A stretch of DNA of 64,000 nucleotides, from the IMG/VR virus record IMGVR_UViG_3300027782_000027, positions 1-64,000 of that record; one strand, written 5' to 3'. The notes beneath the pieces were generated by a model. The model had not been told where the DNA came from. It saw only the letters and a list, made by a program, of their open reading frames with translations, and did not search any database. Each line of letters opens with the position of its first letter. Positions within the stretch are counted from its first letter, which is position 1. The position numbers and the translations under genes were made by a program. This document shows positions 420 through 61,841 of this stretch, one piece after another. Origin of the DNA: a virus.

Positions 420-451
420 ACCCCATTGAATTCGCTACTCAGTGGGGTTTT
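420..451. terminator. Bidirectional intrinsic terminator
   Basis: ACCCCA and TGGGGT arms flank a 17-nt loop and are followed by TTTT. It lies between the convergent first gene and array ORF 1. The minus-strand arm is inside the last codons of the array ORF. Confidence 0.65.
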
Positions 452-1235
452 CATTTAAGACATCTTCTACCACTGGTGAATTACATGTACGCGATGTGTG
501 TGTTGTAGTTACCTTATGATTTAGGACTTCTCCCACCTCACTGGGAACAATAGTGGGTCTACAATTGGTTTTAGTTACCTTATGATTTAATACCTTCTCC
601 ACCATATTCGGAAACGGCGGTGTATTGAATGATATTGTAGATACCTTATGATTTAATACATCTTCCACCTTTATTTCCAACTGAAAACAAGAATGACCTG
701 TTGTAGATACCTTATGATTTAATACATCTTCTACCTTATGTCCAACCCATCCATCATACCCATCAGTTGTAGATACCTTATGATTTAATACATCTTCCAC
801 CAAGAAACCTTCGTTACCGATATCGTTTTGCGTTGTGGATACCTTATGATTTAATACCTCTTCCATCTTCACACTTGCCTTCATGCCCATGTAAACAGTT
901 GTAGATACCTTATGATTTAATACCTCTTCCACCCCGCCTGTAATCATGGTCTGCGCCATGGCAGTTGTGGACACCTTATGATTTAATACCTCTTCCACCC
1001 AAGAAGCAAGTATTGGTTCAAAATCTTTGGGTTCCAATGAGAAAATAGTAAAAAAACTATTAAAGAAATAATATCTCCACCACAAACGACCACTCTTTTC
1101 AAATTCAAAATACCAATGTTCCTTTTCTCGGTCAATTAACCATATAGAATCTTTATATGGGATTATCTCCGTATTACCTAATTCTTTGTATAGTTGTTTG
1201 AATACGACCTGTTTTAATCTATCAGTTACTTTCAT
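435..1235 (-). CDS. Array protein 1: conserved domain plus 9 repeat units with hypervariable 10-aa inserts
   Basis: Predicted protein of 266 residues. Residues 1-78 form a conserved domain starting MKVTDRLKQVVFKQLYKELG and ending in a Ser-Trp. From there the chain is 12-residue repeats (VEEVLNHKVSTT and close variants) separated by eight unrelated 10-residue inserts such as AMAQTMITGG, DGYDGWVGHK and GHSCFQLEIK. The period is 22 codons (66 nt). The N-terminal domain resembles the MKYLITES-tagged family nearby (for example 4956-5285) but lacks the ITES tag. The last unit is degenerate (VEDVLNENPTE). The start overlaps the end of array ORF 2 by 14 nt, suggesting translational coupling. Function unknown. 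It could be a repeat protein displaying variable peptides, a CRISPR-like RNA source, or both. Confidence 0.75.
   Translation of the reverse strand: MKVTDRLKQVVFKQLYKELGNTEIIPYKDSIWLIDREKEHWYFEFEKSGRLWWRYYFFNSFFTIFSLEPKDFEPILASWVEEVLNHKVSTTAMAQTMITGGVEEVLNHKVSTTVYMGMKASVKMEEVLNHKVSTTQNDIGNEGFLVEDVLNHKVSTTDGYDGWVGHKVEDVLNHKVSTTGHSCFQLEIKVEDVLNHKVSTISFNTPPFPNMVEKVLNHKVTKTNCRPTIVPSEVGEVLNHKVTTTHTSRTCNSPVVEDVLNENPTE
449..999 (-). repeat. CRISPR-like in-frame repeat-spacer array 1 (36-nt repeats, 30-nt spacers)
   Basis: Repeats start at 502, 568, 634, 700, 766, 832, 898 and 964. Each is 36 nt, of form GTTGTGGATACC...CTCTTCCACC on the plus strand, with a degenerate distal copy at 449-471. The eight spacers are exactly 30 nt and share no visible similarity. 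By hand count, 103 of 240 spacer bases are G or C (43%), well above the AT-rich surroundings. In coding orientation the repeat ends ATCCACAAC. GTGGA near one end and TCCAC near the other are complementary. The repeat nearest the conserved domain is close to consensus and the far end is degraded, as in CRISPR arrays read from the leader. No cas gene is in the window. Confidence 0.8.
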
Positions 1236-1899
1236 TTTCTTTTTTGTTGTTTAATACCTCATCTACCGATTCCGCTCTTCTTGAGATGTATTCTTCCGTT
1301 TTGGATACCTTACGATTCAATATATCTTCCACCAAAAAGTTTCCTTCACCTACGTCACGGACTGTTTTGGATACCTTACGATTCAATACCTGTTCCACCG
1401 CAATGGTTACAGTTCCTGCCTTTCCTGCAGTTGTGGATACCTTACTATTCAATACCTCTTCCATCATATCATTCGAAGTGAAACTGAATTGCTGAGTTGT
1501 GGATACCTTACTATTCAATACCTCTTCCACCCCTTGCTTAAAACTTCTGAAACGGCTTGCAGTTGTGGATACCTTACTATTCAATACCTCTTCCACCCCG
1601 CCATCCATGACATATTGAGTGCTGTCAGTTGTGGATACCTTACTATTCAATACCTCTTCCACCCAAGATGAAATAATTGGTTCAAAATCTTTGGACTCCA
1701 AAGAGAAAAAAGAAAAGAAAGATTTGAAATAATCATATCTCCAATATAAACATCCACTTTCAGTTAGTTGGAAATACCAGTATTTTTCTTCTCTATCAAT
1801 AAACCAATAACTGTATTGGGTAGGGATAATTTCCACATTACCTAATTCTTTGTATAGTTGTTTGAATACAACCTGTTTTAATCTATCCGTTACTTTCAT
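1222..1899 (-). CDS. Array protein 2: conserved domain plus 7 repeat units
   Basis: Predicted 225 residues. The N-terminal domain is nearly the same as array protein 1 over the first 26 residues. Repeats here read VEEVLNSKVSTT, changing to VEQVLNRKVSKT and VEDILNRKVSKT toward the C terminus. Six 10-residue inserts (DSTQYVMDGG, ASRFRSFKQG, QQFSFTSNDM, AGKAGTVTIA, VRDVGEGNFL, EEYISRRAES) show no mutual similarity. It ends VDEVLNNKKENESN, where the codons of the tail overlap the ATG of array ORF 1. Its own start lies inside the 3' end of array ORF 3. Function unknown. Confidence 0.75.
   Translation of the reverse strand: MKVTDRLKQVVFKQLYKELGNVEIIPTQYSYWFIDREEKYWYFQLTESGCLYWRYDYFKSFFSFFSLESKDFEPIISSWVEEVLNSKVSTTDSTQYVMDGGVEEVLNSKVSTTASRFRSFKQGVEEVLNSKVSTTQQFSFTSNDMMEEVLNSKVSTTAGKAGTVTIAVEQVLNRKVSKTVRDVGEGNFLVEDILNRKVSKTEEYISRRAESVDEVLNNKKENESN
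1232..1663 (-). repeat. CRISPR-like in-frame repeat-spacer array 2
   Basis: Repeats of 36 nt start at 1298, 1364, 1430, 1496, 1562 and 1628, with a degenerate copy at 1232-1267. All six spacers are 30 nt. The repeat differs from the other arrays at its centre: TTACTATTC in place of TTATGATTT. The array therefore has its own repeat version, homogeneous in the four proximal units. The two distal repeats carry GTTTTGG and TTACGATTC variants. Confidence 0.8.
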
Positions 1900-2521
1900 T
1901 TTCTTTTTTATTGTTTAATGCCTTTTTCACCCAAGCACTATTTAATACTTCTTCCACTGACCTTTCGGAAAACAAGGAATTATTTTTAGTTGTTGATACC
2001 CTACTATCTAATACTTTTTTTACCTTTCTTTTTTGGGCGGCGTCTACTTCAAAAGTTTCGGATACCTTATGATTTAAGACCTCTTCCACCCACTTTGCTG
2101 TTACAGTAGTTTTCTCTTCAGTTGTGGATACCTTATGATTTAATACCTCTTCCACCAGAGGAAATTCGTCAATTACAAACATTTTTGTTGTGGATACCTT
2201 ATGATTTAATACCTCTTCCACCTTTCGCGAGAAGTAACCGAGCTTATTGCCTGTCGTGGATACCTTATGATTTAATACCTCTTCCACCCAAGAAGATATT
2301 ATTGGTTCAAACTCACTCTGTTCCAAAGAAAAAATGCTGAAAAACGATGGGAAGAATGAGTATCTCCAAAATAAACATCCATCTTTAGACAACTGAAAAT
2401 ACCAATAACAATTTTCCCTATCAATGAACCATACAGAGTCTTTATACGGGATTATCTCCACATTACCTAACTCTTTGTATAGGTGTTTGAATATGAGTTG
2501 TTTTAGCTTATCTGTAACCAT
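1883..2521 (-). CDS. Array protein 3: conserved domain plus 5 repeat units, first of the three-array operon
   Basis: ATG 2521 (MVTDKLKQLIF) is chosen over the upstream GTG at 2527 because the host-type promoter box CAAAGATA (TATCTTTG on this strand) occupies 2527-2534. The conserved domain is followed by VEEVLNHKVSTT repeats and inserts GNKLGYFSRK, KMFVIDEFPL, EEKTTVTAKW, FEVDAAQKRK and KNNSLFSERS. The last units are degenerate: VKKVLDSRVSTT, then two repeat remnants fused without a full insert. The stop overlaps the array ORF 2 start by 17 nt. It is followed in the same direction by arrays 2 and 1. Confidence 0.75.
   Translation of the reverse strand: MVTDKLKQLIFKHLYKELGNVEIIPYKDSVWFIDRENCYWYFQLSKDGCLFWRYSFFPSFFSIFSLEQSEFEPIISSWVEEVLNHKVSTTGNKLGYFSRKVEEVLNHKVSTTKMFVIDEFPLVEEVLNHKVSTTEEKTTVTAKWVEEVLNHKVSETFEVDAAQKRKVKKVLDSRVSTTKNNSLFSERSVEEVLNSAWVKKALNNKKENESNG
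1923..2288 (-). repeat. CRISPR-like in-frame repeat-spacer array 3
   Basis: Repeats of 36 nt start at 1989, 2055, 2121, 2187 and 2253, with 30-nt spacers. The distal end (about 1923-1960) holds two repeat fragments with a shortened interval, consistent with a deletion. Sequence identity to the consensus falls steadily away from the conserved domain. Confidence 0.8.
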
Positions 2522-2526
2522 AAGCA

Positions 2527-2534
2527 CAAAGATA
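2527..2534 (-). promoter_or_regulatory. Host-type -7 box of the three-array operon
   Basis: TATCTTTG on the minus strand matches the Bacteroidota consensus TAnnTTTG and ends 5 nt before the ATG at 2521. The mRNA would be leaderless or nearly so. A matching -33 TTTG is not clear. Confidence 0.5.
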
Positions 2535-2546
2535 ATAAAAAATTAC

Positions 2547-3086
2547 TTAATAAACAGGTCCTGATTTGAATTTTTTACATACAGGTATATTAGCTGTGGT
2601 TTTAAACTCTCTTGGAATTGCTTCACGTATTTTACCCCATTTATTATACGTATAAACATATTTGTCAATATCATTATATAAATCACCTTTAAATTTATAA
2701 TATGAGTTTACAAATTGACAAAAATCTTTGGCGGTTGAGATAGTTTTTATTGCTGGAGTTATTAAATCTTCTGAAGATGTTGTTTGAATATCTTTTTTTA
2801 CTTGATTTGCAGCATAATTTCCATCCCAAGCGTATGTGTCGGCTTTTGAATCATATCTACACCAATTAAATGAATTTACAACAATTTCATAGTCTTCAAA
2901 TCTTTCTTCACAAAGCCTAATACTTTCAGTCCCCGAATCAGGAAGGCTTGCTCCAAGTGATAATCCCATATCATTGAGACTCCCTATTAGGTTACCTGCT
3001 GGTACTCCCCCAATAGTTTGTTCTTTTATTACACGTTTTATTAAATTAATTAATTCAGATTCGGTTAGTCTAATTTTTTTACTCAT
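2547..3086 (-). CDS. Tagged protein, LTES class, unknown body
   Basis: Starts MSKKIRLTESELINLIKRV followed by IKEQ, the tag shared with about ten genes in the window, with LTE and IKE as possible gp21-type cleavage sites. The body (about 150 residues) has Cys residues in CEERFEDYEIV, FNWCRYDS and DFCQFVNSYY contexts and is not recognised. I infer a head-packaged protein. Confidence 0.7.
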   Translation of the reverse strand: MSKKIRLTESELINLIKRVIKEQTIGGVPAGNLIGSLNDMGLSLGASLPDSGTESIRLCEERFEDYEIVVNSFNWCRYDSKADTYAWDGNYAANQVKKDIQTTSSEDLITPAIKTISTAKDFCQFVNSYYKFKGDLYNDIDKYVYTYNKWGKIREAIPREFKTTANIPVCKKFKSGPVY

Positions 3087-3112
3087 TTTGTTTTTTTTAT
3101 ATAAATATATTA

Positions 3113-3451
3113 TTAATTTTCAGACGGTAATTTTAACGACCATTGGGAGCTCATTATCTTGTTGGACATTTGACCCTCCAAATTTAGTTTATTCTTAACC
3201 CATTGCCCAACAATTCTGGTGGATTGATAACTGTTAAGAGAAAAGAAGGAAGAAATGGCTTCAATTAAACCTTTATAGATAAAACACAATTCATTATTGG
3301 AATGATTACCACCATATTGAATTTGAGCTGACTCATCTTCAGGATATGAAAAATATATACTGGCACCAGTTTTAGTTATAATGAAATCCTGACTATCAAG
3401 ATACCTGAATATTACTTTATCTAATTGTGATTCTGTGATTAAATATTTCAT
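3113..3451 (-). CDS. MKYLITES-family protein with C-terminal W-V helix
   Basis: Starts MKYLITESQLDKVIFRYLD. The body follows the pattern shared by at least six genes in this region: a beta-rich middle, a FSL motif, then a helix with GQWVKNKLNLE near the C terminus. This helix aligns with the array repeat (SWVEEVLNHKV). Function unknown; inferred virion-delivered. The start overlaps the stop of the upstream minus-strand gene at 3448. Confidence 0.75.
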   Translation of the reverse strand: MKYLITESQLDKVIFRYLDSQDFIITKTGASIYFSYPEDESAQIQYGGNHSNNELCFIYKGLIEAISSFFSLNSYQSTRIVGQWVKNKLNLEGQMSNKIMSSQWSLKLPSEN

Positions 3452-3819
3452 GATAATGTTATACTTCTAACTGATTTAACCTCATAGTCAGGAAAGAACT
3501 CATTAAATACATCTGACATAATGAATTTGCCGTGAACTAACCAAATGGGATGAGGAAACGCTGTACCATATATATCGTCAAAGTTCCTATTATAGTATAA
3601 ATCGCCACTTGGTTTATTATAAACCATTACAGCGTTTTGGTCACTATCAAATAAGTTAAGTCTTAAATCATTTTCATCATATGAATTAACCAAATTTGCA
3701 AAATAAGGAACCAATTTAGGTTTCAGTCTTTCGTATTGTTCCGTATATTCAGAATCTCTCCAAGTTCTTTCAAGTTCAGATATTAATTTATGTTGTGACT
3801 CGGTAATAATATACTTCAT
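3448..3819 (-). CDS. MKYIITES-tagged protein, unknown body
   Basis: The tag MKYIITESQHKLISEL is followed by an unrelated body with a PHPIWLVHGKFI segment. It starts from a 32-nt divergent spacer shared with 3852. TATTTATTA lies just upstream on this strand. Confidence 0.7.
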   Translation of the reverse strand: MKYIITESQHKLISELERTWRDSEYTEQYERLKPKLVPYFANLVNSYDENDLRLNLFDSDQNAVMVYNKPSGDLYYNRNFDDIYGTAFPHPIWLVHGKFIMSDVFNEFFPDYEVKSVRSITLS

Positions 3820-3851
3820 GTAATAATAAATATAATTATATTTATTATATT
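3820..3851. promoter_or_regulatory. Bidirectional late-type promoter spacer
   Basis: A 32-nt gap between divergent start codons holds TATTTAT boxes in both orientations. The plus-strand box is TATTTATT at 3839-3846, 5 nt before ATG 3852. Confidence 0.6.
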
Positions 3852-4175
3852 ATGAACCTACAAGAGAATATAAAAAAAGTATTAAGGGAAGAAACAGATT
3901 TTTCACCACAGTTCAAAAGAAGACTGAATAGATTTAAATCGTTTGTATGGGATAACAATGTAACTAATTATCCATGTGATTTTGAAAACTTTGAAGCGTT
4001 CATGCGTGGTATACAACATGAAATTATGGACATGATTACAGATGGTTCTGATACCGATGGTCCATTGTCTGAGTGGTTAAAATATAAAGATGGTGTTACG
4101 TATGTAGAAAACTACATGAGGGATGACTTAGAAAAGTTTTATAATAAAGAATGTGTTGATGTCTTATACGTATAA
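3852..4175 (+). CDS. Tagged protein, MNLQENIKKVLREE class
   Basis: The amphipathic N terminus MNLQENIKKVLREE is shared with 5643 and 9201. LRE fits the (L/I)xE consensus of T4-type prohead proteases. The remaining ~90 residues are acidic and unrecognised. The 3' end overlaps convergent 4164 by 12 nt. Confidence 0.7.
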   Translation: MNLQENIKKVLREETDFSPQFKRRLNRFKSFVWDNNVTNYPCDFENFEAFMRGIQHEIMDMITDGSDTDGPLSEWLKYKDGVTYVENYMRDDLEKFYNKECVDVLYV

Positions 4176-4520
4176 ATCAAGAAATTGTTCCACTGTTATT
4201 CCAAGACCTGAGATACCAAATAAATTCATAAATTCAGATTCATCATATCTATCACATCCGTTATTGATAATCCAAGGAATATCTGTAACATAATTCATCT
4301 GATAAAGTATATCATAACTATTATCTAATTTTATAAGATACATCGGACCATAGTTATCCATACTAAGTCTTCTTCGTAAACCATCATCAGTAATACAGTT
4401 ATCAAAAGACATCATTACATCAATCAAATCTGGGTCAATCTCCACACGACCCGTAAGGTCAATATTAAATTTGTCTTTAATTAATGTTTTTAATTTTGAT
4501 TCAGTGATTAAGTATTTCAT
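4164..4520 (-). CDS. MKYLITES-tagged protein, unknown body
   Basis: MKYLITESKLKTLIKDKFNI, then about 95 residues including DPDLIDVMMSFDNC and a YDILYQMNYVTDIPWIINN segment. Not recognised. A TATTTATATATA late-type box precedes the ATG on the minus strand. Confidence 0.7.
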   Translation of the reverse strand: MKYLITESKLKTLIKDKFNIDLTGRVEIDPDLIDVMMSFDNCITDDGLRRRLSMDNYGPMYLIKLDNSYDILYQMNYVTDIPWIINNGCDRYDESEFMNLFGISGLGITVEQFLDLYV

Positions 4521-4536
4521 TATATATAAATATTAG

Positions 4537-4947
4537 TTAACAGTTACCTGTATTATAAACCTCAATATTGTGACCTCTAATTAGACCTCCACCGAACTGA
4601 TATAAAGCCTTAGCAATAGTATCTCTATACACACTCCTATTACCTTCTTCATACATATACCTCCCCACATTTTCAGGTTCCGGCTTAGGTATGTAGACAA
4701 CCAAATCCATAGAGTTACGAGTGGGGATGATATTATAACTACAATATCTTAAGACGGTTGAAATATCATTTTCAAATATAGTTTTTGTTAGAAAGATAAT
4801 ATCTTCTCTTTTTCCTTCAAGACCAATCTCATCAATAATATCTTCAGGTTCCTTATCAGTCATTTTACACAGAGTACGCATACCAAATTTCTCTAATAAG
4901 GGTTTAAGAGTTTTGCTATATTGATTCTCAGTGATTAAGTATTTCAT
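4537..4947 (-). CDS. MKYLITEN-tagged protein, unknown body
   Basis: The tag variant MKYLITENQYSKTL is followed by a 120-residue body with TDKEPEDIIDEIGLEGK and YIPKPEPENVGRYMYEEG. No family recognised. It is packed closely between two other tagged minus-strand genes. Confidence 0.7.
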   Translation of the reverse strand: MKYLITENQYSKTLKPLLEKFGMRTLCKMTDKEPEDIIDEIGLEGKREDIIFLTKTIFENDISTVLRYCSYNIIPTRNSMDLVVYIPKPEPENVGRYMYEEGNRSVYRDTIAKALYQFGGGLIRGHNIEVYNTGNC

Positions 4948-4955
4948 ATATTATA

Positions 4956-5285
4956 TTAGTTATTTACTCTTATCCATACATTCGGTGCGGGTTTAGCCCC
5001 ACGGACTTGTACAACTATTACTTTGAGGGTATTTTCAACCCATCTACGGATAAGTTCCATGGAATCGGAGATACCCAAAGAAAAGAAAGAGGCCACTTCA
5101 TTAATTAAACTATTAACAATGTAACACCAGCCACTAATTTTATCATATCTAATCTCAGCGTATTCATCATCTTCTAAATTAACTAAAAATATAGTTGCAC
5201 CCTTTTTAATCTGAATAAAGTTCTTAATATCCAAATATCTAAAGATTACTCTGTCTAATTGTGATTCGGTGATAAGGTATTTCAT
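4956..5285 (-). CDS. MKYLITES-family protein with C-terminal W-V helix
   Basis: MKYLITESQLDRVIFRYLD tag and body, ending FFSLGISDSMELIRRWVENTL. The W-V-E helix corresponds to the first array repeat of the array proteins. Paralogue of 3113, 6268, 6634, 8520 and 8833. Confidence 0.75.
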   Translation of the reverse strand: MKYLITESQLDRVIFRYLDIKNFIQIKKGATIFLVNLEDDEYAEIRYDKISGWCYIVNSLINEVASFFSLGISDSMELIRRWVENTLKVIVVQVRGAKPAPNVWIRVNN

Positions 5286-5288
5286 ATA

Positions 5289-5609
5289 TTAATATTCAAA
5301 AAACATAACATCAACATCAAATACTTTACTAAACCAATCAGAAATGAATTTACCTGATTGCTCTTTATCAAGTGGATACATGGATGAAAACTTATCTAAA
5401 AAAGATTCATCAATAAATAATCTACCATCACTATGGTCAAACTCCATTAAAATAAAAAAATCAGGGCCTCTTTCCTGGCTATATATATTAATGAAATCAC
5501 TATCTGATGTTCTATCATAATCTAATATATTATTTAACTCAGATATCATTAAATTATTTATTACCGATTTGGCTTTATCTAATTGTGATTCGGTGATAAG
5601 ATATTTCAT
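5289..5609 (-). CDS. MKYLITES-family protein, diverged
   Basis: Start placed at the MKYLITESQLDKAK Met (5609). An upstream in-frame Met at 5630 would put the promoter box inside the gene. The C-terminal half (GRLFIDESFLDKFSSM..FISDWFSKVF) follows the same layout as the W-V family and resembles 21679-21990. Confidence 0.7.
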   Translation of the reverse strand: MKYLITESQLDKAKSVINNLMISELNNILDYDRTSDSDFINIYSQERGPDFFILMEFDHSDGRLFIDESFLDKFSSMYPLDKEQSGKFISDWFSKVFDVDVMFFEY

Positions 5610-5642
5610 ATAGAATATAAATATAATCATATTTATAATAAT
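5610..5642. promoter_or_regulatory. Bidirectional late-type promoter spacer
   Basis: Divergent start codons are 33 nt apart. TATTTATA at 5630-5637 lies 5 nt before ATG 5643, and a mirrored box faces the minus-strand gene. Confidence 0.6.
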
Positions 5643-5972
5643 ATGGACTTAAAAGAATCTATAAAAAGAATACTGAGGGAAGAACTATCGGCGAGAATTA
5701 AAAGAAGACTTTCTAATGATGAAATGGAAAATGAGTTTCTTGAATCTTTTGAAGGTGCTTATCGTCTTACAAAAGACAGAAAGGTTTTAAGTTCACATTT
5801 TTTAGATGAGTTAGTCTACACAACAATAACCTTTATGATGGATGGGGTACATTGGAGATTTGTTAGCACATTACCTGAAGATGAATTTTGGTATGATGAT
5901 ATACACCAAGGGTTAGAAAATCATTATAGAAAAAGAATTACACGGATGTATAATGAAAGAAAAGGTTTTTAA
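5643..5972 (+). CDS. Tagged protein, MDLKESIKRILREE class
   Basis: The N-terminal tag MDLKESIKRILREELS is related to 3852 and 9201. The body of ~90 residues is charged and includes FMMDGVHWRFVSTL. Unrecognised; inferred head-packaged. Confidence 0.7.
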   Translation: MDLKESIKRILREELSARIKRRLSNDEMENEFLESFEGAYRLTKDRKVLSSHFLDELVYTTITFMMDGVHWRFVSTLPEDEFWYDDIHQGLENHYRKRITRMYNERKGF

Positions 5973-5975
5973 AGA

Positions 5976-6254
5976 TTAATTAGAGTTTAAGAATTTAAGT
6001 AACGCTCCAATATATTTGGAACGTTTATCATAGAATTCAGTATCATCATCATATTGAAAAAACTCTTCACCTCTATGTCTATCAATGAACTTTTCAATTA
6101 ATTCATAAGCGTAATCATCTCTGTCGGCGGAATCTTCAAAATCTTCTTCATCCATAATGTAGTTATAATCATCCCTAAGTGCTTCCAATTCATCCATTGT
6201 AAACCTCCTAAGTAAAAATACTTCTAACTGTGATTCTGTAATTAAGTATTTCAT
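5976..6254 (-). CDS. MKYLITES-tagged acidic protein
   Basis: MKYLITESQLEVFLLRRF is followed by a short, very acidic helical body (DEEDFEDSADRDDYAYELIEK). Not recognised. Confidence 0.65.
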   Translation of the reverse strand: MKYLITESQLEVFLLRRFTMDELEALRDDYNYIMDEEDFEDSADRDDYAYELIEKFIDRHRGEEFFQYDDDTEFYDKRSKYIGALLKFLNSN

Positions 6255-6267
6255 TATTCGTTAACCA

Positions 6268-6621
6268 TTAATCTGTAACTATTAATCTGTAATCATATGG
6301 ACCATCCCAAATCGTACTATTACTAATACCCAAAGTATTATTAACCCATTCTTTGATTATATCCAAACAATCCGATTTACCAATGGGTAATAAGGTAGAT
6401 AAATCCTCAGTCAAACTACGATTTACAAACACCCAATTCCTAACTTCACCAAAGGCGTTGTTAACATAAACACTAATCTGTGATTGACTATCTGACTCAC
6501 TGTTTAAGAAATATATATAATTGTTGAATCTCTTCTTGTTGTCATATATCACAAAGTCCTGAATATCAAGATACTTAAAGATTACTTTCTCTAATTTTGA
6601 TTCGGTGATAAGGTATTTCAT
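6268..6621 (-). CDS. MKYLITES-family protein with C-terminal W-V helix
   Basis: MKYLITESKLEKVIFKYLDI, a beta-rich middle, LLPIGKSDCLDIIKEWVNNTLGI. Member of the W-V helix paralogue set related to the array proteins. Confidence 0.75.
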   Translation of the reverse strand: MKYLITESKLEKVIFKYLDIQDFVIYDNKKRFNNYIYFLNSESDSQSQISVYVNNAFGEVRNWVFVNRSLTEDLSTLLPIGKSDCLDIIKEWVNNTLGISNSTIWDGPYDYRLIVTD

Positions 6622-6633
6622 TATATATAAATA

Positions 6634-7002
6634 TTAGTTAAGGGGTATTCCCAATAACGAATGAATAAGGATGTCTTTGTTAGACGGTATTTTTAACCAA
6701 GACTGGGACATCAAAGTAGCCTTGGTGGTATTTGTAACCTTCATTTGTAGGGTATTCCCAACCCACCTACCAATAGCTGATTTAGAATCAGATTCGTCCA
6801 AAGAAAATAACGATGAGATGTTCTTGATTAATTCGGGACTTATTACACAACCAAAATTACCATTTTTGATTTGAGCATATTCATCATCTTCAGAGTTAAC
6901 GAAGTATACTAAAAGACCTATTTTAATTTGAATAAAATCTTGATGGTTCAAGTAAATAAAGATTGCTCTATCTAATTGTGATTCTGTAATTAAGTATTTC
7001 AT
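6634..7002 (-). CDS. MKYLITES-family protein with C-terminal W-V helix
   Basis: Start set at the tag Met (7002), preceded by a TATTTATATATA box. Body ends LFSLDESDSKSAIGRWVGNTLQMKVTNTT and a ~30-residue tail. The Lys-Val-Thr-Asn-Thr-Thr tail is close to the array repeat KVSTT, strengthening the link between the families. Confidence 0.75.
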   Translation of the reverse strand: MKYLITESQLDRAIFIYLNHQDFIQIKIGLLVYFVNSEDDEYAQIKNGNFGCVISPELIKNISSLFSLDESDSKSAIGRWVGNTLQMKVTNTTKATLMSQSWLKIPSNKDILIHSLLGIPLN

Positions 7003-7109
7003 TATATATAAATACAAAGATACACATAAAACTGAACAATACATATTGGGTTAATAATTTAATAAGAATAAGATAATATGGTTTGAGGTCGTTTTTAATA
7101 CTTATTATT

Positions 7110-7817
7110 ATGGATTTATCAAAGTTTTTAACCATAGTAATCCCTTGTAAGAACGAGGGCAAGATAATTGAACAAACGTTGTCCTTATTAAACTTTCAAA
7201 AGGGAATACAAGATGTTAGAGTTATTGTTTGTGATTCATCGGATGATGATTATACATCCTATTCTTTGGAAAATAGGAGAACAGATTATTTTAATCTACA
7301 GATTATTTCAGGAGGACTTCCGTCTGTTGCAAGAAATAAGGGAGCAGAGAATGTGGAAACACCTTATGTTCTATTTTTGGATGCTGACATATTCTTATTG
7401 GATTTTGACATATTAAACAATTGTATATGGGAGTTCTTATTACATAATACAGATTTGATTACATGTAAGGTAAGGTCAACGACAGGTGAGTATAATAGTA
7501 TATTCAGATTGTTTGACACCATACAAAAGGTATTTAAACCAATCACGCCATTTTGTCTTGGTGGGTTTATGATGGTTAAGAAAGAAGTATATGATACAAT
7601 CGGCGGGTTTGATGAAAACGCAAGAGTTGCTGAGGATTATCTATTCTCCAAACAAGTTAAACCAAGTAAGTTTTATATCATGAATACAACAGTATTCACA
7701 AGTCCAAGAAGGTTCAAACAGAAAGGTGTGTGGTATATGTTAAAACTTATGGTTAGTTCATTCTTCAACAGGAACAATAAAAATCATTTTGAGGATGATA
7801 AAGGATACTGGGAATGA
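7110..7817 (+). CDS. Family 2 glycosyltransferase
   Basis: GT-A fold signature: LTIVIPCKNEGKIIEQTL at the N terminus, VIVCDSSDDD for nucleotide binding, RNKGAENVETPYVLFLDADI with the DAD metal-binding motif (about residues 90-96), and later GGFDENARVAEDY. Expected to transfer a sugar from a nucleotide donor. Target unknown: host surface glycan, phage DNA or virion protein. ATG 7110 is preferred over 7083 by homology to family starts. It overlaps the next gene by ATGA, so the two are likely one operon. Confidence 0.85.
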   Translation: MDLSKFLTIVIPCKNEGKIIEQTLSLLNFQKGIQDVRVIVCDSSDDDYTSYSLENRRTDYFNLQIISGGLPSVARNKGAENVETPYVLFLDADIFLLDFDILNNCIWEFLLHNTDLITCKVRSTTGEYNSIFRLFDTIQKVFKPITPFCLGGFMMVKKEVYDTIGGFDENARVAEDYLFSKQVKPSKFYIMNTTVFTSPRRFKQKGVWYMLKLMVSSFFNRNNKNHFEDDKGYWE

Positions 7818-8527
7818 ATAATTGGAAAACGATAATCATGAGTGACTTACACTTAGGAGCGAGACAATCACAGACAGATAAGATAATAAGTTTCTTGGAT
7901 AATAACACAACGGAAAAACTAATACTGAACGGTGATATAATAGATGGTTGGGCTCTCAAAGGTAATGGTAAATGGACAAAGGATTGTACCAAGATATTCA
8001 GGAAGTTCATGAAGATGTCCGAGAAGAATACAAAGGTAATTTATATAAGAGGAAACCATGATGACTTCTTAAAAGATTTTATTCCATTTAAATTAAACAA
8101 CATCAGGATTGTAAGGAAGTATGTTCATACAGGGATAGATAATAGAAAGTATTTTTGTTTTCACGGAGATGTATTGGATTTTGTTATAATGGAAGCAAGA
8201 TGGCTTGCAGTAATCGGTGGATGGTCATATGATATTGTCATTAAGTTTAATACTCTATATAACAAAATAAGAAAGTGGTTTAACTTACCATATCATTCAT
8301 TAGCTAACACAATAAAACAATCTGTAAAAGGGGCGATTAACTTTGTATCTGATTTTGAGGATAACGCGAAAGGTTTAACAAAACAAAAGGGATATGATGT
8401 TGCGGTGTGTGGACATATTCATCACCCGAAGATAGAGAATGACTATATGAACTCAGGAGACTTTTGTGAGAACTCTACATGTCTTGTAGAAGATTACAAT
8501 GGGGTGTGGAAAATAATTACTATCTAA
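7814..8527 (+). CDS. LpxH-like calcineurin-type metallophosphoesterase
   Basis: Metallophosphoesterase motifs in order: SDLHLGA (D-x-H), NGDIIDGW (GDxxD), RGNHDD (GNHD), FCFHGDVLD (H) and CGHIHHPKI (GHxH). This layout matches UDP-2,3-diacylglucosamine hydrolase-like enzymes. A hydrophobic-aromatic insertion (residues ~125-160) may be a membrane-interacting cap. Coupled to the glycosyltransferase by ATGA overlap, which suggests a surface-lipid or glycan modification role. Substrate not determinable here. Confidence 0.85.
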   Translation: MNNWKTIIMSDLHLGARQSQTDKIISFLDNNTTEKLILNGDIIDGWALKGNGKWTKDCTKIFRKFMKMSEKNTKVIYIRGNHDDFLKDFIPFKLNNIRIVRKYVHTGIDNRKYFCFHGDVLDFVIMEARWLAVIGGWSYDIVIKFNTLYNKIRKWFNLPYHSLANTIKQSVKGAINFVSDFEDNAKGLTKQKGYDVAVCGHIHHPKIENDYMNSGDFCENSTCLVEDYNGVWKIITI

Positions 8528-8816
8528 CTATAACTTCTTTAACTCTTCTATCCAAAGTATTCTCAACCCATCTAGCAATAACATATTTAGAATTATCAAA
8601 TTCTATAGAGAAGAAATCTTTAATCTCATCAATTAACCCAAAAATTATTACACACTCACCACCTCTAAAGTATTCGATTGATGAGTCGATATATTCACCA
8701 CCTTCAGAATTGGCGAAGTAAATTGCACTCCCTCTTTTAATCTGAATAAAGTTCTTAATATCCAAATATCTAAAGATTACTCTATCTAATTGTGATTCTG
8801 TTATAAGGTATTTCAT
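8520..8816 (-). CDS. MKYLITES-family protein with C-terminal W-V helix
   Basis: MKYLITESQLDRVIFRYLDI, IIFGLIDEIKDFFSIEF, then VIARWVENTLDRRVKEVIVR. Paralogue of 4956, nearly identical over the first 27 residues. Converges on the phosphoesterase with an 8-nt overlap. Confidence 0.75.
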   Translation of the reverse strand: MKYLITESQLDRVIFRYLDIKNFIQIKRGSAIYFANSEGGEYIDSSIEYFRGGECVIIFGLIDEIKDFFSIEFDNSKYVIARWVENTLDRRVKEVIVR

Positions 8817-8832
8817 TATATATAAATATTAG

Positions 8833-9168
8833 TTAGAAGGGTAACCTCAATGTCAAACTTCCACTGTTTGTAATGGACATTGATTTTTCGTAACTGTATT
8901 TTACTTGTAATGTATCACCAATCCATCGAACAATAATCTTCTCAGAATCAGAATCACTCAAAGAAAATAATGATGAAATATCGTCAACTAATTCATAATT
9001 CATAAAAGAAAAATTATCACTCATATCGTATCTGATTTGACAATACTTATCACCTTCTGAATTAACAAAGTATATAGTGTCTTTATCCTCAACCTGAATA
9101 AAATCTTGATTGTCAAGATACCTAAAGATTACTTTTTCTAATTTAGATTCTGTGATAAGATATTTCAT
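8833..9168 (-). CDS. MKYLITES-family protein with C-terminal W-V helix
   Basis: MKYLITESKLEKVIFRYLDN, DDISSLFSLSDSDSEKIIVRWIGDTLQVKYS. Same family. The start lies on a divergent promoter spacer shared with 9201. Confidence 0.75.
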   Translation of the reverse strand: MKYLITESKLEKVIFRYLDNQDFIQVEDKDTIYFVNSEGDKYCQIRYDMSDNFSFMNYELVDDISSLFSLSDSDSEKIIVRWIGDTLQVKYSYEKSMSITNSGSLTLRLPF

Positions 9169-9200
9169 ATGATAATAAATATAATTATATTTATAATATT
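9169..9200. promoter_or_regulatory. Bidirectional late-type promoter spacer
   Basis: A third 32-nt divergent spacer with two opposed boxes. TATTTATA at 9188-9195 ends 5 nt before ATG 9201. Nearly the same sequence as 3820-3851. Confidence 0.6.
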
Positions 9201-9656
9201 ATGAACCTACAACAAAACATAAAAAGAATATTAAGGGAAGAATACACCGTAAAACAGATGAAGTTATTAACTATCGCAAGTCAGGTGGGGTTACTAAAGA
9301 CAGGAGAAATGTTCGGTGGTATAGAATACCTTATAAATGTGTTAGGTGATGAGTTCCTTACAACAAACAATAAGGTTAAGATTATTAGGGAAGTAGTAGA
9401 AACAACCGATTATGAATATATCACACTAATGGATATGAATGAAAACCCAATAGTTCTCAAGGTTGGAGACGGTAAACTTTCACAAATAGAAATGATAAAT
9501 AAAGAAGATGTTACAGTGTTCCATTATGGTGGATATGAATACTCACAAGATTTAGGTGAAAGTTATATATCTTATGAAGAACTACCAAAAGATGTATTAG
9601 ATGATATCTTTAATATGGTATTAGATTTCTATACAGATACTTTAGAGAATAAGTAA
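9201..9656 (+). CDS. Tagged protein, MNLQQNIKRILREE class
   Basis: The tag is followed by a helical segment (SQVGLLKTGEMFGGIEYLINVLG) resembling the FGG segment of 22585-23094, then a beta-rich acidic C-terminal domain. Unknown function. It abuts array ORF 4 end to end. Confidence 0.7.
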   Translation: MNLQQNIKRILREEYTVKQMKLLTIASQVGLLKTGEMFGGIEYLINVLGDEFLTTNNKVKIIREVVETTDYEYITLMDMNENPIVLKVGDGKLSQIEMINKEDVTVFHYGGYEYSQDLGESYISYEELPKDVLDDIFNMVLDFYTDTLENK

Positions 9657-10385
9657 TTATTGATTTAAGACCTGTTCCATCACATAATTCATTACAGACA
9701 TTTCTACATCCGTTGTACATACCTTATTATTTAATACCTCTTCCACTCCTCTTGTGAAAGGTCCAGAATATGCTTCCATTGTAGATACCTTATGATTTAA
9801 TACCTCTTCTACCTCAATTCTTCCAACGTAATCAAGTGAATCGGTTGTGGATACCTTATGATTTAAGACCTCTTCCACCAATGAATGTTCGGGGTATTTG
9901 AGAATGGTAGTTGTAGACACCTTAACATTATGACTTAATACATCTTCCACCTTCCAAGGAACACGAACTTTAACATCGCACGTTGTGGATACCTTATGAT
10001 TTAATACATCTTCCACCATCATGCTTTCAACACCGCTACCTGTCACGGTTGTGGATACCTTATGATTTAAGACCTCTTCCACCACGTAGTTCCTAAGCCC
10101 TATAGGGCGATATGTTGCGGATACCTTATGATTTAAGACCTCTTCCACCCAAGAAGATAGAACAGGACAAAAATCATCCGAACTCATGGAGAATATTTGA
10201 AAAAACGAATTAAAAAAATCGTATCTCCACCATAAAGTACCTGACTCATCAAGTTCAAAGTACCAATGTTTATTATCCCTATTAATGAACCATATAGACC
10301 CATTATAAGGAATAATCTCACAATCACCTAACTCTCTATATAGGTGTTTAAAAATAATTTGTTTTAATCTATCTGTAATAACCAT
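9657..10385 (-). CDS. Array protein 4: conserved domain plus 8 repeat units
   Basis: Predicted 242 residues. The domain begins MVITDRLKQIIFKHLYRELG and ends SSWVEEVLNHKVSAT. Seven inserts of 10 residues follow (YRPIGLRNYV, VTGSGVESMM, CDVKVRVPWK, TILKYPEHSL, DSLDYVGRIE, EAYSGPFTRG, DVEMSVMNYV) between VEEVLNHKVSTT-type repeats. One repeat has two extra residues (VEDVLSHNVKVSTT), and the last is cut short as MEQVLNQ. It stands alone about 7 kb from the triple array and has its own strong host-type promoter. Function unknown. Confidence 0.75.
   Translation of the reverse strand: MVITDRLKQIIFKHLYRELGDCEIIPYNGSIWFINRDNKHWYFELDESGTLWWRYDFFNSFFQIFSMSSDDFCPVLSSWVEEVLNHKVSATYRPIGLRNYVVEEVLNHKVSTTVTGSGVESMMVEDVLNHKVSTTCDVKVRVPWKVEDVLSHNVKVSTTTILKYPEHSLVEEVLNHKVSTTDSLDYVGRIEVEEVLNHKVSTMEAYSGPFTRGVEEVLNNKVCTTDVEMSVMNYVMEQVLNQ
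9658..10149 (-). repeat. CRISPR-like in-frame repeat-spacer array 4
   Basis: Repeats start at 9712, 9778, 9844, 9910, 9982, 10048 and 10114, with a truncated copy at 9658-9681. All are 36 nt except 9910-9951, which is 42 nt. All seven spacers are exactly 30 nt and mutually unrelated. The 6-nt enlargement keeps the frame. Confidence 0.8.
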
Positions 10386-11198: not shown

Positions 11199-11495
11199 AT
11201 GAATAATAATTTATCAACAATTCCCCCTGACGATATGTCTAACCCCATTTCCATACCTGACATACTGAAGAATGTGAGGGTTGTAACTGACCCTTTACGG
11301 GATGTTGTTGCGGTGACCCTATATTATAATGGGGAAAAGGTGGGTAAGATGGAGTATAGGAAAGCTTCATCTACATACCAAGGAGACATGAAGATATTAA
11401 CATTGTATTCACTGACCCCTGAGTTCATGGAGTTATTCAAGGGACAGGAAAACCCAATTAGGATTTTAGACAACCATATTAAAGTGTTTGTTTAA
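11199..11495 (+). CDS. Hypothetical protein
   Basis: A 98-residue protein with a proline-rich N terminus and a beta-rich core (VVAVTLYYNGEKVGKMEYRK). Not recognised. It overlaps the convergent metalloprotease-like gene by 17 nt. No packaging tag, unlike its neighbours. Confidence 0.6.
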   Translation: MNNNLSTIPPDDMSNPISIPDILKNVRVVTDPLRDVVAVTLYYNGEKVGKMEYRKASSTYQGDMKILTLYSLTPEFMELFKGQENPIRILDNHIKVFV

Positions 11496-11865
11496 ACTGT
11501 TTCCAAATAACACTCTTGTATTTTGTTTCATTTCCCCGAGCTTCTATTTCAAAGGGGCAGTCCCAATAACCATGTCTTGTTTGTGATGATGCGTAGTTAC
11601 GTTTGATACCCCTTTGTATGTGGTGGGTGTATTCGTGTATGATTGTTTTTACAAACTTATCAACAGTCTCACATGTGGATGGGTTTATCACCAATGCTTC
11701 ATAATCGTATTGGCCATAGAGATTTGTTAACCCGTTTCTAATTTTTAGTTTCGGGGATGGTTTGTTTCCATGACCGAGTGTCTTTCTAACTATGGTTATA
11801 AGTTGTAACCCCATCTTACGAAGTTCGGTGGTTGTGTATGTGTCTAATCTATCTTTGAGTTTCAT
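11479..11865 (-). CDS. HExxH zinc metallopeptidase-like protein
   Basis: About 128 residues from MKLKDRLDTYTTTELRKMG. The longer upstream frame to 12054 overlaps another gene and looks non-coding. IIHEYTHHIQRG is an HExxH zinc site near residue 80, and a downstream PFEIEARGNE could give the third ligand. Resembles SprT/minigluzincin-type phage metalloproteins. Substrate unknown. It forms a tight pair with the following gene. Confidence 0.65.
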   Translation of the reverse strand: MKLKDRLDTYTTTELRKMGLQLITIVRKTLGHGNKPSPKLKIRNGLTNLYGQYDYEALVINPSTCETVDKFVKTIIHEYTHHIQRGIKRNYASSQTRHGYWDCPFEIEARGNETKYKSVIWKQFKQTL

Positions 11866-11866
11866 A

Positions 11867-12289
11867 TTAGTCGATGAATTTGTAAGTGATGTTCCCGATG
11901 ATTTCGTCATTGTGTCTTGGTAATGGGATAGAGGCAGCTTTGAAGAAGGTTGGGATGATTGTGTTGTTGATAAGTTTCTGTGCTCCGTTGTTAGCTGACC
12001 ACTTTCTGCTCTTGAAGTAACTTGCTCTGTGATGACTACGCCAAGAGTTAACACTTGGGATTGATGACTCAGCGTAACGGTGGCCTTCTTTCTTCATGGT
12101 TACCTCTATGTTAATCACACGACCATAAGCGTTAGCGTTCCAACTCCACTTATCTGTCTCACCCACAGATACAATACGAACCGATACCTCACCGAAGTGG
12201 TTCCATGTGTCAGTCATAACAACAAGGTTCTGCTTCTTGATGAATCTCATTAACAATTTGGTTGATAGTTTGTCTTGGGTGATTTTCAT
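11867..12289 (-). CDS. Hypothetical protein paired with a metallopeptidase
   Basis: 140 residues, basic, with KWSWNANAYGRVINIEVTMK and WRSHHRASYFKSRKW. Not recognised. It ends 1 nt before the start of the HExxH gene, so the two are probably co-transcribed and co-translated. Confidence 0.65.
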   Translation of the reverse strand: MKITQDKLSTKLLMRFIKKQNLVVMTDTWNHFGEVSVRIVSVGETDKWSWNANAYGRVINIEVTMKKEGHRYAESSIPSVNSWRSHHRASYFKSRKWSANNGAQKLINNTIIPTFFKAASIPLPRHNDEIIGNITYKFID

Positions 12290-13363: not shown

Positions 13364-13488
13364 GTCAGAAGGGGGGATAATCCCCTCAAAAAAATCCTGG
13401 AAAAATTTTTTAGAAAAGCGACCCTTTGTTTTAAAATGTTCCCTATATGTAAAAAATAAATTTTTGGAAAAATTTTGTATTTATGAAT

Positions 13489-13881
13489 ATGAGTAATGTT
13501 ATTGGTTCGGAAAAGTTTAATGGGTTATTAACTAAGGTTGTTAATTCTGTTATTGGTAAGTATCTTAAAAACGCTACCACTATTGATTACGATTTTAATT
13601 TTAGTGTTAAGGTAAGAAGAGGTATGAGTAAACCATATGTTGGTTGTAATGCGGGTTCTCATGGGGAACCTTATAATTACGTGATTGAGGTTTATTCGGA
13701 TATTGATATACCGAAGGGTTTTACATATAATGATGAGTATAGAAAGAAACACAATAAGATTGCTGATGGGTTTCATAATAGTATAATAGCCAATGAAATT
13801 AAAAATCTTATTCCAATGATGGGTTTGGATACCAAGAGTCTTGGTAATGTGTTTGGTGTTTGTTTTATGAATGTAATTTAA
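13489..13881 (+). CDS. Hypothetical protein
   Basis: Begins MSNVIGSEKFNGLLTKVVN; ATG 13483 in the same frame overlaps the TATTTAT box, so 13489 is chosen. 130 residues with a central YVGCNAGSHGEPYNYVIEVY. Unrecognised. About 55 bases upstream are nearly repeated before the next gene (13887-13943). Confidence 0.6.
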   Translation: MSNVIGSEKFNGLLTKVVNSVIGKYLKNATTIDYDFNFSVKVRRGMSKPYVGCNAGSHGEPYNYVIEVYSDIDIPKGFTYNDEYRKKHNKIADGFHNSIIANEIKNLIPMMGLDTKSLGNVFGVCFMNVI

Positions 13882-13943
13882 GTACACCACCCCTTTGTTT
13901 TAAAATATTCCCTATATTTGAAAAATAAATTTTTGGAAAAATT

Positions 13944-14216
13944 ATGAGTATTTTGTCAAATAAGAGAATGGAATTTTTAAAGAATTATATTGAGGGTGAG
14001 TTACGTGATTATGATTGGTTTAAGGGTGTTAAGGTAAGTATGTCTGAATGGGAATATAATGATTTGAGATTACCTTGTTATGATATTGATATTGATTCGG
14101 GTGGTCAATCTTTGTATAGTGAGTTTATTGAGGACCTTGACACTATGTTTTCTGTATTGTGTCCCAAGGATAAGGATGGGGAGACAATTGCTGTATGGAA
14201 TTTAATCAGTGAATGA
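13944..14216 (+). CDS. Untagged paralogue of 20516-20827
   Basis: 90 residues: EFLKNYIEGELRDYDWFKG..VKVSMSEWEYN..YDIDIDSGGQSLY..DLDTMFSVLCPKDKDGETIAVW. The gene at 20516 has the same body with an added MKYIITESQEMSIRKVN leader. This one starts directly at the body, so it may act in the cell rather than in the capsid. Confidence 0.7.
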   Translation: MSILSNKRMEFLKNYIEGELRDYDWFKGVKVSMSEWEYNDLRLPCYDIDIDSGGQSLYSEFIEDLDTMFSVLCPKDKDGETIAVWNLISE

Positions 14217-47204: not shown

Positions 47205-47278
47205 GCCTTCGTAGCTCAGTAGGATAGAGCAACAGATTTCTAATCTGTGGGCCAGGGGTTCGAATCCCTTCGGGGGTA
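47205..47278 (+). tRNA. tRNA-Arg (anticodon UCU)
   Basis: Full cloverleaf: acceptor GCCTTCG/CGGGGGT (with G-U pairs), D arm GCTC, anticodon stem ACAGA/TCTGT with loop TTTCTAA (anticodon TCT), T arm with GGTTCGAATCC. CCA is not encoded. It decodes AGA, the Arg codon used most in these AT-rich genes. Confidence 0.9.
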
Positions 47279-47286
47279 CTATTTAA

Positions 47287-50463: not shown

Positions 50464-50856
50464 TGGTGGAGGTGCTGGGTTTCGAACCCAGGTCCAAAAA
50501 TGTTTACGATAAAACACTACACGTTTAGGTCATTGTTTTTCTAAACAATCCGAAACTTCACAATTCCCTTATTTTATAGTGGTTCGGTTTACTGAGAACT
50601 AATCCTCCACTTTGTTCCTTTTCGGATAGAAACCACACCACGGTACGAGCTTCTGTTTCAAGGCGTATGCTTACCGGCCCATTGTATACTAATCTTAGAT
50701 TAGGCTACAGATACTTCTTCAGTACGGATTAAACCGAGTGTAGAAAGTTTTGCAATTGTGTTGCCGTTTGTTTTTTAAACCAGTTTTACAGGGTTAGTTT
50801 AGCCCCGACGTGCGTTTTATAATAAATTCATTCCTGTCAAATCCAGAAACACCCCC
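50464..50856 (-). ncRNA. ssrA: tmRNA
   Basis: The 5' end GGGGGTGTTTCTGGATTTGA and the 3' end CGAAACCCAGCACCTCC-A-CCA pair as a tRNA-like acceptor, and the T arm GGGTTCGAAACCC is intact. An internal open frame reads NGNTIAKLSTLGLIRTEEVS-VA then TAA (50700-50702), followed by the usual hairpin CTAATC..GATTAG. The tag would be longer than most bacterial tags. tmRNA frees stalled ribosomes and marks products for proteolysis. About 393 nt, CCA encoded. Confidence 0.85.
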
Positions 50857-61837: not shown

Positions 61838-61841
61838 AAAT

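Follow-up and report, generated by a model that had tools for sequence, protein, structure and literature searches.

Organization of the array genes

Four open reading frames on the minus strand of the analyzed window, i.e., the whole stretch of 64,000 nt of viral DNA, consist of a conserved domain of about 79 aa followed by an array of 36-nt repeats and 30-nt segments. Complete units number 8 in A1, 6 in A2, 5 in A3 and 7 in A4, and all 26 segments are in frame, which confirms the original prediction for these genes with the exception of one unit: the spacing is 66 nt throughout A1 to A4 apart from a 72-nt unit of A4 with two extra codons inside the repeat. The arrays finish in degenerate partial repeats and then a stop codon, the terminal repeat of A1 reading VEDVLNENPTE*. 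The same region holds paralogues of the domain that carry no array.

435..1235, minus strand: array gene A1, 266 aa (domain 999-1235, array 435-998, 8 units)
964..999, minus strand: first DNA repeat of A1, 36 nt, GGTGGAAGAGGTATTAAATCATAAGGTGTCCACAAC (boundaries from column composition, 167 unique units)
934..963, minus strand: youngest 30-nt segment of A1, peptide AMAQTMITGG (60% G+C vs 32% G+C for the genome)
1222..1899, minus strand: array gene A2, 225 aa (domain 1663-1899, array 1222-1662, 6 units)
1883..2527, minus strand: array gene A3, 214 aa, listed with a GTG start (domain ~2288-2527, array 1883-2287, 5 units)
3113..3451, minus strand: array-less domain paralogue with an MKYLITESQ tag, the same fold and a single repeat-like helix
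4956..5285, minus strand: array-less paralogue
6268..6621, minus strand: array-less paralogue
6634..7044, minus strand: array-less paralogue with the tail WVGNTLQMKVTNT
8520..8816, minus strand: array-less paralogue
8833..9168, minus strand: array-less paralogue
9657..10385, minus strand: array gene A4, 242 aa (domain 10149-10385, array 9657-10148, 7 units)

The N-terminal array domain had no match in Pfam, PHROGs or PDB, fold search included, and matched only the uncharacterised viral proteins A0A6J5L9L5, A0A6J5L9N2 and A0A6J5L6U7 in BFVD; genome-contig scans found no relatives of it or of a neighbouring phosphoesterase. AlphaFold gave no confident structure for the array part (pLDDT <50), so that a peptide-display role has no structural support. 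The neighbouring paralogues bear N-terminal tags that terminate in a probable prohead-protease site, and a protease of the T4 type is encoded by the phage.

The phage carrying the arrays is T4-like, and the family as a whole, found in uncultivated T4-like giant phages, comprises about 60 arrays with 313 units and about 188 distinct segments on about 40 uncultivated viral contigs. Among the collections searched, it was met solely in viral contigs, and all array-bearing genomes are metagenome assemblies. Contig ends lie near arrays in 12 of 36 cases as compared to 3 expected, which was counted in favour of the cassette-array reading given below.

Repeats and segments

The repeat is a DNA unit, with edges out of codon phase and end codons conserved at synonymous sites. 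It spans from the third base of a codon to the second base of codon 12, placing the repeat-segment boundary one base off phase; the first repeat of A1 accordingly opens on the G of the TGG codon of Trp79. Column composition showed G at segment base 30 in 89% of cases, while the 4-fold wobble base R36 is free. Identity of the end codons between lineages was.71 for GTG,.80 for GAA,.89 for GAG,.95 for AAT,.90 for AAG and.95 for ACA, against a domain baseline of.35-.36 at 4-fold sites and.51-.54 for all codons (pairs 45-65% identical). The repeat is also conserved at the protein level, as VEEVLNxKVxTT. Moving outward, repeats differ from the domain-adjacent copy by a mean of 3.5, 3.9, 5.6, 7.4, 8.2, 8.5 and 10.9 nt, and each array's repeats match its own first repeat, e.g., VESVLNGGVTTT vs VESALNCGVTTT in contig L094. 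An RNA hairpin in the repeat looked compensatory within the window but is broken in other lineages and was rejected.

The segments are of fixed length, being exactly 30 nt in 54/59, 53/56 and 49/51 cases at the first three array positions, and unrelated to each other: their identities equal those of a column-shuffled null, i.e., random expectation. In 23 adjacent pairs with identical repeats, the segments differ by 72%, the random level, with a minimum of 59% and no intermediates. The claim that they did not arise by tandem duplication is thus upheld, and in their regular direct repeats and unrelated segments of fixed length these loci resemble CRISPR arrays. The G+C of the segments falls from.43 near the domain to.36 at the far end, as compared to.23-.33 in the domains. 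A candidate PAM-like edge motif was not retained: biases at segment bases 2-3 and 30 are weak, and unclear in young segments.

The open reading frame of the arrays is under selection. Across 144 segment clusters, none of 1296 codons is an in-frame stop, while the other five frames contain 56-148 stops, and segments shared between arrays show a pN/pS of 0.31 (18.5 synonymous and 21.5 nonsynonymous changes; p 5e-4). Acquired segments therefore drift by mostly conservative substitution, which points to a function of the peptides. A chance origin of the arrays is excluded by the lack of in-frame stops, the random-level segment identities and the recurrence of the geometry in about 40 independent contigs.

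Turnover of units among related phages

Orthologous arrays gain and lose whole units, which is well supported by comparison of related phages, where the flanking DNA is nearly identical. The domain DNA of A4 is 100% identical to that of its counterpart in contig L021, and yet 4 units are shared and 7 are different. The order of shared segments between orthologous arrays was kept in 210 cases and changed in none. The distal array end is common to 23/40 ortholog pairs and the proximal end to 5/40 (p 0.0009, pairs treated as independent). The comparison of segments between related phages, which had been suggested as a check, thus revealed whole-unit turnover in kept order with the youngest repeats at the domain end. 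Since repeats decay with distance from the domain, growth at the domain end is implied; insertions in the middle of arrays were also seen, and growth is not strictly one-ended. Polarised growth and turnover of whole units in conserved order, with some internal insertions, are a further likeness to CRISPR arrays.

Proposed growth of the arrays by cassette addition

These loci are probably translated CRISPR-like cassette arrays that build a variable multi-peptide phage protein. We propose that the domain encoded by each gene is a small alpha-beta fold, with the 36-nt DNA repeat at the end of its last helix, and that a new 66-nt unit would consist of a copy of the domain-adjacent repeat together with a 30-nt segment from elsewhere, inserted beside the domain. 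Older units would be pushed outward and decay, and units may be deleted or exchanged via recombination between near-identical repeats. With 66 nt divisible by three and the phase kept by the repeat, each addition would lengthen the protein by a 12-residue spacer that stays constant and a 10-residue peptide that is new, and the product would be a scaffold with 1-9 different peptides in fast turnover. Most likely, provided that the peptides bind something, they form a changing set of binders or decoys that serves the phage in an arms race against its host or rival phages.

The segments appear to be captured from other, probably coding, DNA. At their 4-fold sites in the expressed frame, T reaches.38 and G.14 vs.28 and.21 overall (p 4e-8), and this coding-like composition is compatible with the capture of real peptides. 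A six-frame mixture test placed about half of the weight on in-frame coding origin, which is suggestive given that random DNA was partly assigned there too. No source or protospacer turned up in 31 related records, in 50,697 phages, in plasmids or in the genome of the phage itself, so that the phage and plasmid part of the segment search named in the original prediction returned no match; the best phage match to any segment was 22 nt long (E=3) and not beyond chance. The youngest A1 segment has no second copy in its own genome, and degenerate peptide patterns of five segments retrieved only the arrays themselves or nothing from IMG/VR.

The insertion of a fixed 30-nt segment with repeat duplication had been ascribed to a Cas1-Cas2-like agent. 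The segments do behave as acquired cassettes, but neither protein was detected in the phage or its relatives: no hit exceeded the threshold for Cas1 (PF01867) in 16 records or for Cas2 (PF09827) in 9 records. Likewise, the records of the phage and its relatives yielded no tyrosine integrase, and no conserved recombinase or other integrase candidate was found adjoining the arrays.

Alternative explanations

A large old pool of 66-nt units might merely be reshuffled at the 36-nt repeats among paralogous or related-phage arrays, the segments being ancient and capture no longer ongoing. Homologous recombination at repeats would be expected to yield the observed presence or absence of units in an unchanged order, the occurrence of the segment DVEMSVMNYV in both A4-type and A3-type genes shows that units do move, and T4-like phages replicate in a recombination-dependent manner. 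Nevertheless, we consider recombination as the sole process unlikely, as it leaves unexplained where unrelated 30-nt segments beside identical repeats come from, why in each lineage the repeats close to the domain match the first repeat of their own array and why domain-near segments have the highest G+C.

Integration of prespacers by host Cas1-Cas2 acting in trans, at a phage repeat that imitates the CRISPR repeat of the host or takes its place, appears quite improbable. The observed 36/30 geometry, repeat duplication, polarity and synonymous conservation at both repeat ends are traces to be expected of such an integrase. However, besides the lack of Cas1 and Cas2 in the phage, the repeat has no CRISPR-repeat match in Rfam, its 5-bp GTGGA/TCCAC stem is intact in just 25/49 first repeats and lost in other lineages, and plasmids and phages hold no trace of a matching bacterial repeat.

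The original prediction had also offered the arrays as a crRNA source. Their transcripts would then be pre-crRNA that guides host Cas proteins against competitors or host genes, with an incidental reading frame, as might be suspected from the array geometry and from the mini-arrays that many phages carry according to the literature. This use is very improbable: no cas genes were found in the phage records, the repeat hairpin is not conserved, and protospacers were found neither in phages, plasmids and related phages nor in five viral-contig scans. Moreover, all 144 segment clusters are open in frame and under purifying selection at the protein level, and the variable-peptide option from the same prediction is clearly better supported.

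The in-frame 22-residue period and the repeat conserved as protein would also suit an ordinary protein of 22-residue repeats in which point mutation under positive selection makes the loops between repeats diverge fast. Segments alignable to one another or conserved by gradual substitution had been named as signs of such a protein; the slow, conservative drift is indeed seen once segments are acquired, but they are not mutually alignable, which argues against this origin. The absence of partly diverged segments and of homology among the inter-repeat segments, the turnover of whole units with identical flanks, the repeat boundaries out of codon phase and the low pN/pS of shared segments already contradict this explanation, which is hardly tenable. 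Least probable, and contradicted as well, is template-directed diversification by a diversity-generating retroelement or similar, suggested by a phage protein with hypervariable stretches of constant length: reverse transcriptase (PF00078) is absent from 9 records (own and 8 related), the differences between segments involve every base and the G+C content instead of template adenines, and the genome holds no template copy.

Comparison with known systems

The translated cassette arrays that we favour share with CRISPR arrays of 36-nt repeats and ~30-nt spacers (e.g., II-C, VI-B) the unit lengths, the unrelated segments, the ordered whole-unit turnover, the youngest repeats at one end and the degenerate terminal repeat. 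By contrast, they are translated in one selected coding frame, which speaks against a non-coding transcript processed to crRNA, a protein-domain gene ends in their repeat, their peptides are under purifying selection, and no cas1/cas2, conserved repeat hairpin or protospacers were found in the phage, plasmid and viral-contig sequences covered.

In mimivirus, the MIMIVIRE gene R349 is likewise a viral reading frame with short foreign-like segments, namely four copies of one 15-bp sequence matching a virophage (PMC6538805), whereas the phage arrays hold 188 different 30-nt segments between 36-nt repeats, for which no match was found; the partner helicase/nuclease of MIMIVIRE has no established equivalent here. 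False-CRISPRs are CRISPR-looking tandem repeats in protein genes defined by lack of spacer diversity (PMC5294841), while the segments of the phage arrays show full diversity and turnover. RNA anti-CRISPRs (Racr), which are non-coding repeats that stand alone and imitate the repeat of the host, and phage mini-arrays similarly place CRISPR-repeat-like units in phage genomes (PMC10651486), but the translated arrays are long and coding, and any host counterpart of their repeat is hypothetical. Diversity-generating retroelements also create hypervariable short windows in phage proteins, though by base changes, with reverse transcriptase and template, and not by addition of whole cassettes. The tags of the neighbouring paralogues and the T4-type protease may be analogous to T4 internal head proteins with capsid targeting sequences (PMC9026906); the array proteins differ in carrying D for E in the tag, and their packaging is putative. 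In agreement with the original prediction, the literature offered no described equivalent of translated cassette arrays, within partial coverage.

Implications

It is conceivable, if doubtful, that the phage encodes a heritable system which records pieces of coding DNA from its environment, each fixed at 30 nt, as 10-residue scaffold peptides via a non-Cas integrase, a peptide counterpart of CRISPR memory. The questions raised concern the enzyme that would duplicate a 36-nt repeat and at the same time insert a piece of fixed 30-nt length, the source of the pieces and the targets of the peptides; with about 40 public viral contigs carrying the family, strain comparison is possible now. If the cassette-array reading is true, CRISPR-like array growth exists without Cas proteins and builds proteins instead of guide RNAs, and viruses would possess a new route to diversity, one that works with entire peptide cassettes and adds to phase variation and mutagenesis by retroelements. 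The mechanism by which these phages seem to gather short peptides is without prior description.

Array genes and their relatives

Four genes in the window were found to combine a domain of approximately 79 residues with tandem 22-residue units, each consisting of 12 conserved residues (VEEVLNHKVSTT) and 10 unrelated residues, the latter encoded by 26 segments in total:

435-1235, minus strand: array gene A1, domain and tandem units
1222-1899, minus strand: array gene A2, domain and tandem units
1883-2527, minus strand: array gene A3, domain and tandem units
9657-10385, minus strand: array gene A4, domain and tandem units

No further array copies were found in the rest of the 240,759-base source record, whose first 64 kb make up the window. 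The phage is of the T4-like type and encodes gp20 portal, gp23 capsid and S77 prohead protease. The same arrays were detected by the repeat DNA pattern and two domain searches in about 40 uncultivated viral contigs, all data being metagenome assemblies without a cultured host, and the parsed set comprised 61 array genes and 313 units, with all segment lengths divisible by three. Of 36 contigs of at least 20 kb (among viral contigs L018-L110), 12 end no more than 2.5 kb from an array, compared to 3 expected, which is compatible with arrays that vary within a sample or are hard to assemble.

Searches of phage records, plasmid records and GTDB genomes did not detect the domain, and neither its sequence (Pfam, PHROGs) nor its fold (PDB) had a match; in BFVD, three uncharacterised proteins from uncultured phages matched it. 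The AlphaFold model of the domain was confident (pLDDT ~95) and comprised a helix, four strands and two helices, while disorder was predicted for the array part. Six ORFs in the neighbourhood are paralogues that share the fold but lack an array, and their last helix, WVENTLQMKVTxT, is the counterpart of the first repeat of the array genes; therefore, the array is an outgrowth from the end of a pre-existing protein domain. An ORF with a zinc-peptidase-like HEYTHH motif (11479-12054, minus strand) had no match in Pfam, and 13 of the 36 array loci have a relative of it nearby. Other features of the window were:

47205-47279: tRNA-Arg(tct)
50464-50856, minus strand: predicted phage-encoded tmRNA gene, tag AKLSTLGLIRTEEVSVA
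13408-13477 and 13877-13946: two 70-nt direct repeats, 86% identical and probably promoter elements, each immediately preceding an ATG (13483 and 13944)
62016-62470: low-complexity Thr/Pro/Asn repeat (TPTNTxTPTNT) within ORF 61794-63122, which may be a linker in a tail or fibre

The array as DNA and as protein

Column composition of 167 unique units placed the start of the constant stretch at the third base of the preceding codon (G, 89%) and its end at the second base of codon 12 (C, 96%). Codon 12 is unconstrained at the wobble position. The repeat is therefore exactly 36 nt and the segment exactly 30 nt, the geometry given in the original prediction. The edge between them is one base off codon phase, which is not expected from a purely protein-level repeat. 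Moreover, between lineages with 45-65% shared domain residues, the synonymous base of repeat codons GTG, GAA, GAG, AAT, AAG and ACA was kept far more often than in domain codons, with no such retention at repeat codons 4, 5, 9, 10 and 12. This retention points to recognition of both repeat ends as sequence.

The single open frame predicted for the 26 segments was confirmed in the larger set: 0 of 1296 segment codons were stops, as compared to 56-148 in the other frames. Segments common to several phages had undergone 18.5 synonymous and 21.5 nonsynonymous steps (pN/pS.31; domain.14), and we conclude that the array peptides matter. At their 4-fold sites, T and G made up.38 and.14 as compared to.28 and.21 overall, as would coding DNA in the array frame, and in-frame capture of coding DNA is a possible segment source. 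A six-frame mixture test assigned roughly half of the weight to in-frame coding, although some random DNA was placed there as well.

Turnover of whole units

In 23 adjacent unit pairs with identical repeats (35 compared bases), the segments differed at a median of 72% and a minimum of 59%, and the pairwise identities of 188 segment clusters, a count set by a 9-mismatch threshold, fitted a column-shuffled null. The segments are thus as unlike one another as had been predicted and, judged by sequence, are cassettes and not diverged copies; unrelated segments between identical neighbouring repeats rule out an ordinary repeat protein. The comparison between related phages, which the original prediction had proposed, revealed ortholog arrays differing by entire units: A4 and its counterpart in viral contig L021 have identical domain DNA, but share 4 segments and differ in 7. 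In 40 ortholog pairs, not phylogenetically independent, the order of shared segments was kept 210 times and broken 0 times, and the domain-far segment was present in both members of 23 pairs, the domain-near one in both members of 5. The repeats of each array were similar to its own first repeat, their divergence from this domain-adjacent copy growing with distance outward. G+C was.43 in domain-near segments,.36 in domain-far segments and.23-.33 in domains.

An integrase that cuts at the ends of the 36-nt repeat and inserts 30 nt while copying the repeat would leave this pattern; the step might be performed by Cas1-Cas2 of the host, by a phage protein not yet characterised or by another enzyme. 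The predicted Cas1-Cas2-like insertion would fit the pattern, but neither Cas1 nor Cas2 was found in the phage or its relatives, nor were reverse transcriptase and tyrosine integrase. Recombination between repeats could account for loss, exchange and insertion inside arrays, yet leaves the origin of unrelated segments without explanation. The arrays change as CRISPR arrays do, but are not classed as such: neither cas genes nor a repeat hairpin conserved between lineages were found, the coding frame is under selection, and no protospacer was found in phages, plasmids and related phages or, for five segments, in IMG/VR viral contigs. A retroelement system is ruled out by the lack of reverse transcriptase in the phage and its relatives. 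In line with the original prediction, to which no such system was known, no equivalent was found in the part of the literature covered; the nearest published ideas are MIMIVIRE R349 (PMC6538805), false-CRISPRs (PMC5294841) and RNA anti-CRISPRs (PMC10651486), each differing in a defining point.

Possible packaging and function

About 30 ORFs at 2547-38506 carry common short N-terminal tags (MKKxVRLTESDLxRIVKRVIxE, MKYLITES, MNLQENIKKxLREE) ending in I/L-x-E, likely a prohead-protease site. Similar tags ending in such a site are present in T4 internal proteins (PMC9026906). With the T4-type S77 protease also encoded in the genome, the tagged ORFs probably form a large group of proteins that are targeted to the capsid and injected. 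In the array proteins (435-2527, 9657-10385), D (VTD, ISD) replaces the E of the paralogues' presumed cleavage site ITE. Since aspartate at the cleavage position in T4 stops processing with packaging still possible (PMC9026906), the array proteins could enter the capsid without being cleaved and then be injected. Most likely, the scaffold displays a variable set of peptides that would bind or decoy a fast-evolving partner.
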